NCBI GenBank assembly: GCA_013425455.1 | Contig: JACCLI010000045.1 | Coordinates: 1 to 34,052 of the forward strand | Direction: 5' to 3' | DNA: 34,052 nucleotides | From: Microcaldota archaeon | Lineage (GTDB): Archaea; Micrarchaeota; Micrarchaeia; Anstonellales; Bilamarchaeaceae | In this document: positions 3,318-15,120 of the stretch, in pieces | Numbering within the stretch: the stretch's first letter is position 1 | Layout: every line of letters starts with the position of its first letter | Notes under the pieces: model-generated | Databases searched by the model: none | Seen by the model: only the letters and a program-made list of their open reading frames with translations | Told to the model about the DNA's origin: nothing | Translations under genes and position numbers: made by a program

Positions 3318-4814
3318 TTAAATATTTTTCTGCCTGGCCCTGGTGACCGCCCGGAGGAAAAGGATTATGAGCAGCAGAAGCCCCCCGTAATCAAAGAACG
3401 GGATAAGCACGCAGCAATAGAGCAGCACGCCCGCCCCCCCAAGCAGGGTTATCATCAGTTCTCCGGAATTGTGCATTGCGTGGAATAGGGCCGCGATGGG
3501 CACTCCAATAAGCAACCCCAGCGCAGGGAATTCAAACTTCTTCTCAATCAAGTACCCTATAGTCGCACCGGTAATCGCCGTATACAACCCATGGTTCGCG
3601 GAGAAAACAATCGACCTGAGCAGGAAAAGGAAAAGCCACGACCACACGTCCGCGCCCATCGGGTTCCCGAGGAGGTAAATCCAGTTCTCTATGAACGCAA
3701 AACCCATTCCTATGGTGAACCCGAACACTATTCCATCTTCTATTGAATTGAACTCGTGGTGGTTTGCGAAAATGAGCAATCCGCTCCCCTTGAAGAACTC
3801 CTCCACCGGGGGCGCGACAAGGAATGCGGTGAAGAAGCCCAGCCCGACCAATCCAAAGATAATTCCCATAACCGTATTTATCCCAATCGCCATGAGCGCG
3901 GCAAGCATTCCCCACAGGAACAAAGTCACCAGCACTCTTAGTGGCTCCCTCTCCTTGTAGTCCGCGTACCACCAGATGAAGCACCAGAGGAACGGCACAA
4001 CAAAAGCAATCAGGCCGGACATAATGAATGCCGCCATTGCGGTCCAGGACTTCCACACCTCTCCCGCCACCGCCATATAAAATATCACTATAAGTATCCC
4101 GAGCAGCTCCACACCCCAGAAATATGGGGAAACCATCGCCGCGTGCACCTTCTCCTGCATCTTCCTTTTGATTGAAAATGGCGAAAGCAGGCTGGGCAGT
4201 GAATACTCGCCCTCATAAGCTTCTTCATGTTTTGTCCGGCTCACAATCCACCACGCGGCAAGCGAGAGCGGAACCACCAGAAGGAGAAACGCCCCTCCCA
4301 CGCAAAACAGAGTATTCCCTGCAAAGCTCCAAAAATTATTCTCATACGCGCCCCAGTCCGCCCGCACCTCCAGCGGCCCGTACCCATATTCCCCCTCTTC
4401 CCGGGTGAGCACCGCATACAATTTGTAATTCTCCGAATTCTGATAATTATAAGGTATTGTTGCGTTGCACTCCAGTTCCGTAATCCCTTCCCAGCTCTCC
4501 ATCTCCCCGAGGCAGTCAATTTCCCCCAGCTCCTTCCCCTCCCCAAATATCCTCAAAACAAGCGAATCCGTTTCCGTGAGCGGGGGCGTAACCACCCTCA
4601 GTGGCGCAACATAAGGCGAATCATCCGGAGACGCATAAGCCGGCAGCCCCTCTGCCCTGAACTCCTGCGCCCTCCCCATCGCGTCCAGCTCTTCCAGCCC
4701 GAGGTCTTCTCCCAAAAGAATGGGCAAAATTATTATCGCAAGGCTGACCAGTATCCCGGAGACCACGAGCAGCGCGACAAATATAGGAAGTGCGGCGTTT
4801 ATCTCTTTCAGCAT
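3318..4814 (-). CDS. PrsW family intramembrane metalloprotease with extracytoplasmic N-terminal domain
   Basis: Multi-TM; motifs APPVEEFFKGSGL, FGFTIGMGFAFIENWIYLL, NHGLYTAITGATIGY, ALFHAMHN characteristic of PrsW; ATG at 4814 (track start is GTG at 4817). Confidence 0.85.
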   Translation of the reverse strand: MLKEINAALPIFVALLVVSGILVSLAIIILPILLGEDLGLEELDAMGRAQEFRAEGLPAYASPDDSPYVAPLRVVTPPLTETDSLVLRIFGEGKELGEIDCLGEMESWEGITELECNATIPYNYQNSENYKLYAVLTREEGEYGYGPLEVRADWGAYENNFWSFAGNTLFCVGGAFLLLVVPLSLAAWWIVSRTKHEEAYEGEYSLPSLLSPFSIKRKMQEKVHAAMVSPYFWGVELLGILIVIFYMAVAGEVWKSWTAMAAFIMSGLIAFVVPFLWCFIWWYADYKEREPLRVLVTLFLWGMLAALMAIGINTVMGIIFGLVGLGFFTAFLVAPPVEEFFKGSGLLIFANHHEFNSIEDGIVFGFTIGMGFAFIENWIYLLGNPMGADVWSWLFLFLLRSIVFSANHGLYTAITGATIGYLIEKKFEFPALGLLIGVPIAALFHAMHNSGELMITLLGGAGVLLYCCVLIPFFDYGGLLLLIILFLRAVTRARQKNI

Positions 4815-4982
4815 CACTTTTCCTTTTTGCTAACTGATTAAAAATAGCTCTGATGCGAAAAGGGAATTGGAGAATAAAGGCCCCGGCTGGCCTATCTCCC
4901 CTCCATTTATATTAGTTATTACATAATACTATTTGTGGGGATATTTCAATAGTTTACAGATGCCGCCCGGTTCTGGTCTGAT

Positions 4983-6128
4983 ATGGCAACCGCACTGAAA
5001 CACCACGAAACCGCTCCGTTTAAGGGTAGAGTACCCAAATTTGGATTTGAGCGCTACCACCTTCCATCCACAACTCCGCTGCCCAACCTCACCGATGCGC
5101 AGCTAAGCGAAATCATGGCGCGCGGCAGGTCTGCAGAATGCCAGCTTAAGCGGGCCGGGCACCTTTTGGGCAAATCTGAAGGGGATGAGCGCAAAATCCT
5201 GCAAAACAATGCAAGCATGCTTGAATCCGAGATCCGGGAAGCAAGCAAGGCCAGGGATGAGCTCGTTCTGCGCGGGATTCCGCTTGCCTTCCATATGACC
5301 GGGCTCCCGAGCGTCCGCTGGCTGGCCTTTCACGCGGGCTTTGACCTCCAGGATATTTTCCAAACAGCCATGCTGGGGGTGATGAGGGCGGCAGAGAAAT
5401 TTGATTCCGCCATTACTTCCTGCTTTTCCACATATGCATTGTTCTGGGTGCGGCACCGTGTAGTCCGCGAGCTGAAGCGCAGCCGATTCGTCCGGCTTCA
5501 ATTCAACAGCGACCTCTGGCTAAGGTCATACGACCTTGCGAAGAAGTTCATCGAGAAAGGCGATACTAGCGGCGATTCCGTAAAATCCTTCTGCGCAGGG
5601 CACAAGACTGCGGGCAGGATTCTCAAGTCCATGCTCTCGGAAAAAGGCCGGCATAAGGTGGAGGGCGAGAGGGCCAGCCTGCTGCGCCTGAGGGAGGAAA
5701 CCCAGGTGGACCTGACCTTAGACGCCCCATCCCCGTCTTCTTCGGGCTACACTATTGGCGAACTGGCCGGGCAGGGCTCTGAATCTGATTTGATCGAGCG
5801 CATTAACGATAGGAGGCTTGCAAAGAGGCTGATGGCCCGGGCAAGATTAAAGCCAGAGGACCGCGAGATCATAAGGTTTGTTTACCACAACGATTGCTCA
5901 GTTGCAGATGCATCCAGGGAATGCGGGGTATCAAGGGAAACGGCATGCAAGAGGCATGACAGGGCGATATTTACTGCGAGGGAGTACGCCCGCCCCCGAG
6001 GTCTTTTTGAGGAGTACGGCCCCACAACCCCTGGCACCGAACATGTGGTTTCTGAATCCAGGGCAAGAGAGATGGGGCTAAGACGCGCCAGCCTTTCCAA
6101 CGAGCATGCAGAACAGGAAGTTGCCTGA
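4983..6128 (+). CDS. Bacterial-type sigma-70 family RNA polymerase sigma factor
   Basis: Region 2-like ARDELVLRGIPLAFHMTGL...FDLQDIFQTAMLGVMRAAEKFDSAITSCFSTYALFWVRHRVVRELKRSRFVRLQ; region 4-like RLKPEDREIIRFVYHNDCSVADASRECGVSRETACKRHDRAI; linker LDAPSPSSSGYTIGELAG resembles the LDEPIG-type sigma linker. Confidence 0.88.
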   Translation: MATALKHHETAPFKGRVPKFGFERYHLPSTTPLPNLTDAQLSEIMARGRSAECQLKRAGHLLGKSEGDERKILQNNASMLESEIREASKARDELVLRGIPLAFHMTGLPSVRWLAFHAGFDLQDIFQTAMLGVMRAAEKFDSAITSCFSTYALFWVRHRVVRELKRSRFVRLQFNSDLWLRSYDLAKKFIEKGDTSGDSVKSFCAGHKTAGRILKSMLSEKGRHKVEGERASLLRLREETQVDLTLDAPSPSSSGYTIGELAGQGSESDLIERINDRRLAKRLMARARLKPEDREIIRFVYHNDCSVADASRECGVSRETACKRHDRAIFTAREYARPRGLFEEYGPTTPGTEHVVSESRAREMGLRRASLSNEHAEQEVA

Positions 6129-6207
6129 GCTAGCTCATTTTTATAAATTTTCTAGCCCATACTGCTCTTCGGCCATTCTTTCTCGCCAGCGCCCATGGCA
6201 GAAAGCA

Positions 6208-6687
6208 TTAAGCATTCATCATCATTATGCTGAAATTCAGGAATGCCGCGAAGCTCACCCATAATATGTACGGAATCAGCAGCCACCAAGCCGCCCTATG
6301 CACCTTCCTGAACTCCAGAATAGTAAAAAGTATCGCCGCCCACAGCGCCACAATCACCACGAACCCCGCGAGGGGCGACCTCATCCCGAAAAAAGCAATT
6401 GACCATAATGCATTCAGCACAAGCTGGAGCCCAAAAATCCCCAGAGCCTTCTTCACTCCCTTCTCCCCCAGCCCCCTTTCCCACACCAAATATGCGGAAA
6501 TGCCCATCAATAGATAAAGAAAAGTCCACACCGGCCCGAAAACCCAATTCGGAGGACTGAACGATGGCTTCTCCAGCGCCGCATACCACGTTGGAATTGA
6601 CTGGGCCGTAAAATACCCTCCAATGCCCGCCGCCAAAAAGCACACAAAAACGCTCGCCACCAGCCTCAGCCAGCCGATTCCCTTCAT
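6208..6687 (-). CDS. TspO/MBR family (tryptophan-rich sensory) protein
   Basis: WYAALEKPSFSPPNWVFGPVWTFLYLLMGISAYLVW, LNALWSIAFFGMRSPLAG, five predicted TM helices. Confidence 0.93.
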   Translation of the reverse strand: MKGIGWLRLVASVFVCFLAAGIGGYFTAQSIPTWYAALEKPSFSPPNWVFGPVWTFLYLLMGISAYLVWERGLGEKGVKKALGIFGLQLVLNALWSIAFFGMRSPLAGFVVIVALWAAILFTILEFRKVHRAAWWLLIPYILWVSFAAFLNFSIMMMNA

Positions 6688-12618: not shown

Positions 12619-15120
12619 ATGAAAACCAATTCCGCGTTCATGGTTTTGGCATTTTTTCTTTTTCTTGGCGCCGTACATTCCGCAGCGCCCATCTCGGTTA
12701 CCATCACGCCCGAAGAGCCCGGCCCCGAGGACACAGTGACAATCCATGTGGAATACACGGAATCGCTGGATTCCTATTTCATAGGCATATACGTGAATGA
12801 CGAGCGCGTCGAAGCCTGCGAGCGGGACTGGTGCGAATTCACCGGAGGCCCGTATGAGGATGGGTTCTCCTACCATATAAGATATATCGCTGAGGGGGGC
12901 GCAATGGAGGAGACCAACGAGGTGTTTGTTGAGCCGCCCGAGGATTCTGACAACGATGGCATTTTTGACATACTGGATAATTGCCCCAACACTCCCAACC
13001 ACGGGCAGGAGGATACAGACCCACATGCATTCTGCCCCCACGCGCAGGGCGAGGAGCAGATGTGCATCTACACATACGACGGCTACGGGGACGTATGCGA
13101 CAACTGCCCGTCTGTGTTCAACCCGGACCAGGAGGATTCCGACGGGGATGGGTTTGGGGATGCGTGCGACAACTGCATTCTTGCCCCGAACCACGACCAG
13201 AACAATTCGGATGATGATGAGTACGGGGACGCGTGCGACAACTGCCCCTTCTTTCCGAACCCCGAGCAGGATGACTTTGATGATGACGGGGTGGGCAATG
13301 AATGTGACAACTGCGAATGGGATGAGAACCCTGACCAGAACGACAGCGACATGGCGCTGAAATGCCCCCCACACGCAGTTAGCATCAGCTCCTGCCAGAA
13401 GGCTTCAGACGGCTACGGGGACATGTGCGACAACTGCCCGTACGTTTCCAATCCAGACCAGAACGACAGCGACTTTGATTTCCTGGGCGATGCATGCGAC
13501 CCCTGCACCTCGATGGAGAACTGCGCATTCGGCGAGAACGCAACCAATTGCACCGACAAAATAAAGGGAGACGGTGAGCTGGGGGTGGACTGCGGGGGAG
13601 TCTGCCCGAATCCTTGCCCCGACTGCATCCCGGTCATCTACAACGGCAACCCTTCCAGCAAAATAGACATAGTGTTCGTGCCGGATGTTGACTACAACGG
13701 AAATATGGACAAGTTCATTTCAGATGTTTACAATCTCATTTACCTTGGCTATTTCGGCAATTCGCAGTGCACCGAAAACCAGTGCAAATTCAACTTCTAC
13801 TATTACCCGCATGCGGGCGACTACCAGGGCCCCTGCGTAAAATGGGACCTTCCCCCCGGCTATGCGGCCGATTGCGCCTTCGCGGATTCCGCAGCCATAA
13901 TATTCACTGGCGTCGACAGGGCCTGCTCTTACGATGTTTTCTCCACCCACCGTACAGACTTCAAGACCGTGGTCCACGAGACGGGCCACAAGATATTCGG
14001 CATGGCGGATGAGTACTGCTGCGACGGAGGCTATTGGCAGCCAGACCCACCATTCCCGAACGTTTACACCTCGCTCGCCTCCTGCCAGGCCGGCTCCACC
14101 CATCCCTCCTCCTGCAACAATTACTGCCCTGAGAAGAAATGCTGGCCAGGCACCCCCGACGGGAAGGCCGCCTGCGAGAGCTATTACAAATCCAAGGGCC
14201 AATACAGCCTCCTGGACGAGTGCGACTGCGAAAAATGGGCGCAGAAAAACGGGCTGGACAAAACCAAGTGCACCTCAATCTCCCCTGCCTCATGCCCCCA
14301 GGTCTATAGGGATTGGTGGGTCAGCAAGGGCGTCCAGCCGGTCGCGCTCAGCGTCGCTTCCCCTAACTGGTGCAACTGGAGAGGCGCAGGCATAGGCGAG
14401 TGCTGCAAGGAAGGGGGCGACGGCTTATGGAAGTCAGACTCCGACTCCTGCGCCATGCTCAACGGGGAGCAGTTCGAGCCTGATTGCGCAGGCCGCGTAA
14501 CTAACAAATTTGATTCCCTTCCCGACTGCTCGGCAACAAGAGGGTCCCCGGAGTTTGATGAGACCATAGTGGTGGTAGAGCTCGCATTCACCAAGGATTC
14601 CGTCACCCACACCCGCACCAGGGTTGTGAAGAGCAAGCCCCCGAACCGCTTCCTGGAAGTGGGCAAGTTCAGGGTCCGCACGCTCACATCCAACGGCACC
14701 ACGCAGGAAGAGTTTTACATGGACGACCCGCTCGCTTTCCGCCTCTCCAACGTGAGCACGCTGGAGCAGGGGATGATAGAGGGCAACGAATCCACCATCA
14801 TCACAACTTTCGCGGTCCATTCCGCAGTCAGCACCGTGGAAGTGGTGGACGATGCTACAAACGAGACGCTCATCTCCGTTGACATAACCTCCGAGCTCCG
14901 CACCTTCTGCGAAGGCGAAACCGGACCAGAGTGCACATGGCTCCAGGGGGAGGAAGAGGCGCCACCCGCAAACGAAACGGGCGGAAGGAATGAATCCGCC
15001 CCGCCTGCGCAGGAAGCCCCGCCTGGCTCCGACCCCCTCCTTCTGGTTGGAGGAATTGCCGCTGCTGCAATAATCGGGGGCGCAGCCTACTGGTTCATGT
15101 TCCGCGGAGCGAAGAAGTGA
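12619..15120 (+). CDS. Exported membrane-anchored metallopeptidase (M64-like) with thrombospondin type-3 Ca-binding repeats
   Basis: Signal peptide; tandem DNCPxxxNPDQxDxDxDGxGDxCD repeats; zinc site HETGHKIFGMADEY; C-terminal TM LLLVGGIAAAAIIGGAAYWFMF. Confidence 0.9.
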   Translation: MKTNSAFMVLAFFLFLGAVHSAAPISVTITPEEPGPEDTVTIHVEYTESLDSYFIGIYVNDERVEACERDWCEFTGGPYEDGFSYHIRYIAEGGAMEETNEVFVEPPEDSDNDGIFDILDNCPNTPNHGQEDTDPHAFCPHAQGEEQMCIYTYDGYGDVCDNCPSVFNPDQEDSDGDGFGDACDNCILAPNHDQNNSDDDEYGDACDNCPFFPNPEQDDFDDDGVGNECDNCEWDENPDQNDSDMALKCPPHAVSISSCQKASDGYGDMCDNCPYVSNPDQNDSDFDFLGDACDPCTSMENCAFGENATNCTDKIKGDGELGVDCGGVCPNPCPDCIPVIYNGNPSSKIDIVFVPDVDYNGNMDKFISDVYNLIYLGYFGNSQCTENQCKFNFYYYPHAGDYQGPCVKWDLPPGYAADCAFADSAAIIFTGVDRACSYDVFSTHRTDFKTVVHETGHKIFGMADEYCCDGGYWQPDPPFPNVYTSLASCQAGSTHPSSCNNYCPEKKCWPGTPDGKAACESYYKSKGQYSLLDECDCEKWAQKNGLDKTKCTSISPASCPQVYRDWWVSKGVQPVALSVASPNWCNWRGAGIGECCKEGGDGLWKSDSDSCAMLNGEQFEPDCAGRVTNKFDSLPDCSATRGSPEFDETIVVVELAFTKDSVTHTRTRVVKSKPPNRFLEVGKFRVRTLTSNGTTQEEFYMDDPLAFRLSNVSTLEQGMIEGNESTIITTFAVHSAVSTVEVVDDATNETLISVDITSELRTFCEGETGPECTWLQGEEEAPPANETGGRNESAPPAQEAPPGSDPLLLVGGIAAAAIIGGAAYWFMFRGAKK

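Follow-up and report, generated by a model that had tools for sequence, protein, structure and literature searches.

A strongly diverged gene of the sigma-70 family within a conserved archaeal block

The gene and its chromosomal setting

The window, i.e. the whole stretch of DNA analysed here, is an entire contig (G000:C57) of 34,052 bp. It belongs to a draft archaeal genome of 986 kb in 87 contigs, estimated to be 86% complete and 0.2% contaminated. Among its genes is an ATG-initiated open reading frame for a protein of the sigma-70 family, free of internal stops (Table 1). The surrounding genes are archaeal or generic in type; they encode SPFH, PrsW, TspO and DUF2207 proteins, an Lrp-type regulator, PEPcase_2, a GHMP kinase, a phosphoglycerate mutase and a secretion ATPase. 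The sigma gene resembles its neighbours in GC and GC3; in codon usage it is, by a hair, the most atypical among the 33 genes of the window. A search for a bacterial-type promoter upstream of the gene found none.

Table 1. Features of the sigma locus, with positions in the window and the evidence for each.
Feature	Position	Strand	Evidence
PrsW-family membrane protease (left flank), conserved genus-wide	3318..4817	-	PF13367; orthologues in G002, G003, G004
Putative TATA-like box TTTATATTA, upstream of the sigma ATG	4906..4914	+	read from the sequence
Sigma-70 family gene, 381 aa	4983..6128	+	Pfam, NCBIfam and PHROG matches; bacterial-only profile
N-terminal helical hairpin (residues 38-107), ahead of region 2	5094..5303	+	AlphaFold2 helices 38-62 and 68-107, pLDDT mostly >90
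Region 2, 2.1-2.4 (residues ~90-172), with melting-motif aromatics largely retained	5250..5498	+	Sigma70_r2 at 118-168; residue table
Region 3-like helical segment (residues ~173-241)	5499..5705	+	AlphaFold2 helices of moderate confidence; spacing
Region 3.2 linker (residues ~242-266), motif TLDAP...YTIGELAG	5706..5780	+	bacterial-only profile, 228-328 aligned to region 3.2-4
Region 4 with helix-turn-helix (residues ~267-336)	5781..5990	+	Sigma70_r4 at 287-329; pLDDT up to 97
TspO/MBR family protein (right flank), adjoining PrsW in sister species	6208..6687	-	PF03073; synteny in G002 and G003

Comparison with sister species places the gene in a block that is otherwise conserved. In one of them (G002), TspO and PrsW are adjacent, with a gap of ~67 bp and no gene between them (L043:7948-8015). 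In another (G003), the gap is occupied by an unrelated gene for a 230-aa protein (L044:1643-2335), AlkD-type and DNA-repair-like by eye. The syntenic block extends into SPFH, and the four other genomes of the genus that were searched lack the sigma gene. The differing content of the gap identifies the sigma gene as an accessory gene within a conserved archaeal block. The gap itself (4817-6208 in the window), with different cargo in each sister species, may be a small insertion site.

This setting bears directly on whether the gene is an artefact. An assembly chimera or contamination is conceivable for a draft in 87 contigs, and is highly improbable here; the flanking genes on either side are part of a single block whose synteny is preserved in sister species, GC matches, and estimated contamination is very low. 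Moreover, several sigma genes elsewhere in the phylum lie on contigs of 76, 170, 231 and 268 kb, two of them sharing an RtcB neighbourhood. The original prediction, which had described the neighbours as archaeal in appearance and the contig as not obviously bacterial, is borne out by these flanks, which also speak against the chimeric bacterial insert that it had considered.

The genes for the PrsW-family protease and the sigma protein are divergently oriented (3318-6128 in the window), and bacterial PrsW cleaves the anti-sigma factor RsiW. PrsW was rejected as a functional partner of the sigma protein; it is kept without a sigma gene in sister species, and in another genome of the phylum (G041) the two genes are 50 kb apart, so that the pairing appears coincidental. 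Elsewhere in the window, positions 12619-15120 encode a large protein of surface type; it has thrombospondin type 3 repeats, and a HETGH metalloprotease motif is visible by eye.

Family assignment and domain anatomy

Several profile collections agree on the family. Pfam Sigma70_r2 matches residues 118-168 with 40 bits (cut-off 24; E 3.5e-10), and Sigma70_r4 matches residues 287-329 with 24.7 bits, a narrow pass (cut-off 24.1; E 1.7e-5). NCBIfam TIGR02937 spans residues 116-334 (58.9 bits, cut-off 42.9; E 4.7e-16), and the PHROG sigma profile phrog_351 covers residues 117-355 (E 4.1e-16). A profile built for this analysis from bacterial sigmas only also matches (E 2e-23), with region 2 followed by region 3.2-4 in the right order. 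A search of PDB sequences returned sigma factors throughout, among the matches listed. The Pfam scan gave no match to region 1.2, region 3 or TFIIB. The profile search proposed at the outset for regions 2, 3 and 4 thus succeeded for the first and last, both above their cut-offs, and not for region 3. Taken together, sequence identity and context leave it almost certain that this archaeal chromosome carries a genuine sigma-70 family gene, apparently intact and strongly diverged, and they support the earlier claim insofar as the factor is near-complete.

One element of that claim does not stand. The 'unusual insert of about 100 aa' reported between regions 2 and 4 is the normal interval formed by the region 3-like segment and the 3.2 linker. 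From the aromatic pair of region 2.4 to the recognition helix of region 4.2, the window protein has 163 residues; the bacterial sigmas that were measured have 150-153. The region 3-like segment accounts for ~18 additional residues, and the remainder is ~6 shorter, a net excess of ~12.

The AlphaFold2 model of the protein alone, computed from a 38-sequence alignment, has an overall pLDDT of 76. Regions 2 and 4 are mostly above 90, and the region 3-like helices that connect them are of moderate confidence. Of the 50 best fold matches in the PDB, nearly all are sigma chains (259-372 aligned columns). Their global TM-scores are low (~0.2-0.36); the match therefore rests on the individual domains, whose relative placement is unreliable. 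Since the alignment is rich in bacterial sigmas, the model offers no independent proof of homology. The N-terminal helical hairpin seemed by eye a convincing shared derived trait of archaeal sigmas and was rejected as one; a profile of six archaeal sigmas scored the window protein no higher than shuffled sequences.

Within region 2, the picture is one of partial conservation. In E. coli sigma70 numbering, D403, Q406, G411, M413, F419, F427, Y430, W434 and R436 are retained, and E407T, G408A, N409M, W433F and Q437H are substituted. The first four of these substitutions affect positions that are near-invariant in bacteria. Glutamate at the E407 position occurs in 21 of 22 bacterial and 18 of ~38 archaeal sigmas, a contrast that is suggestive only, because the motif MRAAEKFD helped to select the bacterial sample.

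Among the closest known systems are the bacterial primary and group 2/3 sigmas (RpoD, RpoS, SigA, SigB/F/G), which provide the best PDB sequence and fold matches and share regions 2, 3.2 and 4 in order and at near-normal spacing. They differ in that the window protein is ~20-29% identical to them, leaves Pfam regions 1.2 and 3 unmatched, has altered E407, G408 and W433 positions, and resides in a genome without bacterial RNA polymerase (RNAP). With the ECF (group 4) sigmas it shares a TIGR02937 superfamily score above the cut-off. These proteins lack region 3, whereas the long 2.4-to-4.2 interval of the window protein, with its region 3-like helices, is not the short linker expected of that group. 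Archaeal TFB, which has been proposed as a distant homologue of sigma and its functional counterpart (PMC8131849), is characterised by TFIIB cyclin-type repeats, which Pfam did not match in the window protein; the genome encodes a separate, ordinary TFB.

Relatives within and beyond the phylum

Sigma70_r2 genes were found in 37 of 302 genomes of the phylum (~12%, ~1 in 8), an upper estimate, since some sigmas on short contigs look like bacterial ECF proteins and may be contamination. One example is the sigma on a 3-kb contig of G281, which resembles an ordinary bacterial ECF sigma. The genes are distributed over 28 of 126 genera, with up to five per genome. In a sample of 30 of the encoded proteins, region 2 is present in 29, region 4 in 25 and region 3 in 13. 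Sigma-70 in this phylum is a patchy and diverse feature. Two genomes, G038 (L049, G038:C73) and G041 (L052, G041:C22), carry related sigmas in the vicinity of RtcB and of a conserved protein without family assignment ('NLRQQAR...'), and this common neighbourhood suggests a vertically kept sigma locus. In G010 (L048:7228-9831, G010:C13), two tandem sigmas and a third gene of unknown family lie among mevalonate-pathway-type genes.

The window protein itself is a singleton, as the phylum genome set contains no full-length relative. Across 85,462 named species genomes, it is matched best by bacterial sigmas and by a single sigma labelled Aenigmatarchaeota, with 23-49% identity over partial coverage. 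A tree of 56 sigmas was poorly resolved, with the window protein among the longest branches; a single clade of all archaeal sigmas was not rejected (p-AU 0.12, a value that does not establish such a clade). A viral origin was rejected, as no phage genes were recognised around the gene in the window, and viral relatives are no closer than bacterial ones.

These data can be read in terms of a recently acquired bacterial or phage gene that is decaying free of selection. Such a gene could well be missing from the four other genomes of the genus, have slightly atypical codons and sit on a long branch with no full-length relative in the phylum, as this one does. The reading is nevertheless unlikely; all 381 codons are still open, GC and GC3 are like those of the neighbours, and neither the 85,462 species genomes nor IMG/VR contain a close donor, bacterial or viral.

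Sigma-70 genes have previously been described in DPANN genomes, mostly of Woesearchaeota, in a study that excluded mis-binning and found no anti-sigma factor (Castelle et al. 2021, PMC8204110, fam00359). According to a 2018 review (PMC6126073), archaeal sigma factors were first described by Rinke et al. 2013. Like the window gene, the DPANN genes occur in archaeal genomes beside TBP and TFB; their main carriers are named as Woesearchaeota, and the window protein differs in being a singleton. The class of finding is already known, as the original prediction had supposed in suggesting that the gene may belong to a puzzling known group rather than be a first case, and the window gene adds a diverged singleton member to it.

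Host transcription machinery and possible role

Sigma factors on one side and TBP/TFB on the other represent the textbook divide between bacterial and archaeal transcription. Apart from the sigma gene, the genome under study falls on the archaeal side; the only RNAP found in it is archaeal, with an A' gene preceded by B, and it has one ordinary TFB gene, one TBP gene and one Sigma70_r2 gene. TBP and TFB are likewise ordinary in all nine of the phylum's sigma-carrying genomes that were checked. A sigma acting in the host cell must hence meet the archaeal enzyme.

Against this background, the likeliest role of the window protein is that of a chromosomal accessory sigma-70 factor acting on the host's own RNAP and DNA, an inference to which we give a probability of roughly 0.4. 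In that role it would be a minority factor in initiation or promoter binding. Its region 2 would attach to the host A' clamp coiled coil, the conserved RNAP element used by region 2 of bacterial sigmas, and the retained aromatics of region 2.3, together with the helix-turn-helix of region 4, would engage DNA. In this way, the protein could switch or block a limited number of genes, with the normal TBP/TFB system operating alongside. In favour of such a role are regions 2 and 4, intact and in order, the retained region 2 core residues, the sigma chains among the fold matches of the model, the long open frame with neighbour-like GC3, and the recurrence of other complete sigmas on large contigs of the same phylum. 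Against it count the substitutions E407T, G408A, N409M and W433F, the singleton status of the gene and the bacteria-rich alignment behind the model. Archaeal RNAP is also not known to possess the beta flap-tip helix that holds region 4, a further point against. The clamp coiled coil of A' is identical in the sigma-less sister species G002, so no co-adaptation to sigma is visible in the host enzyme, which again speaks against an accessory factor; in the polymerase sequences examined, nothing was seen that marks adaptation to sigma.

Divergence at the core-binding positions of region 2.2 and the unchanged host clamp would also suit the main rival, a repurposed DNA-binding regulator that has lost contact with RNAP and attaches to DNA or a protein partner through region 4 and perhaps also region 2. 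Some archaeal relatives retain only part of the sigma regions, consistent with this. We regard it as somewhat less likely; of the two regions, region 4 is the less well conserved (24.7 bits, versus 40 for region 2), the opposite of what a pure helix-turn-helix regulator predicts.

The same divergence counts against a sigma aimed at the RNAP of a bacterial partner cell. The sole point in favour of this very unlikely reading is the frequent symbiotic lifestyle of such small-genome archaea; their known hosts are mostly other archaea, and neither a secretion signal nor a sigma-linked delivery system was seen.

Returning to the accessory factor, a broader version would hold that the sigmas of the phylum form an old, diversifying family that works on archaeal RNAP, beside or instead of TBP/TFB at some promoters. 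This is improbable on present evidence; if true, cells of the phylum would run two initiation systems. With sigma-70 in ~12% of its genomes, the phylum provides many proteins for examining whether a sigma can work on archaeal RNAP. The window locus offers a clean comparison, as a sister species has the same polymerase clamp helices and no sigma gene.

Two features of the polymerase genes are recorded here in their own right. In the A' subunits of the genus (L152 G000:C77, L153 G002:C61), the stretch between the N-terminal part and the next zinc motif is shorter than in other genera of the family, with positions ~105-137 of PF04997 missing. A draft labelled Aenigmatarchaeota (G099; L146, L149) contains two archaeal-type RNAP B/A' sets, in one of which B and A' are continuous in a single open frame of 1629 aa; this double set may be a second polymerase, a fused gene or contamination.
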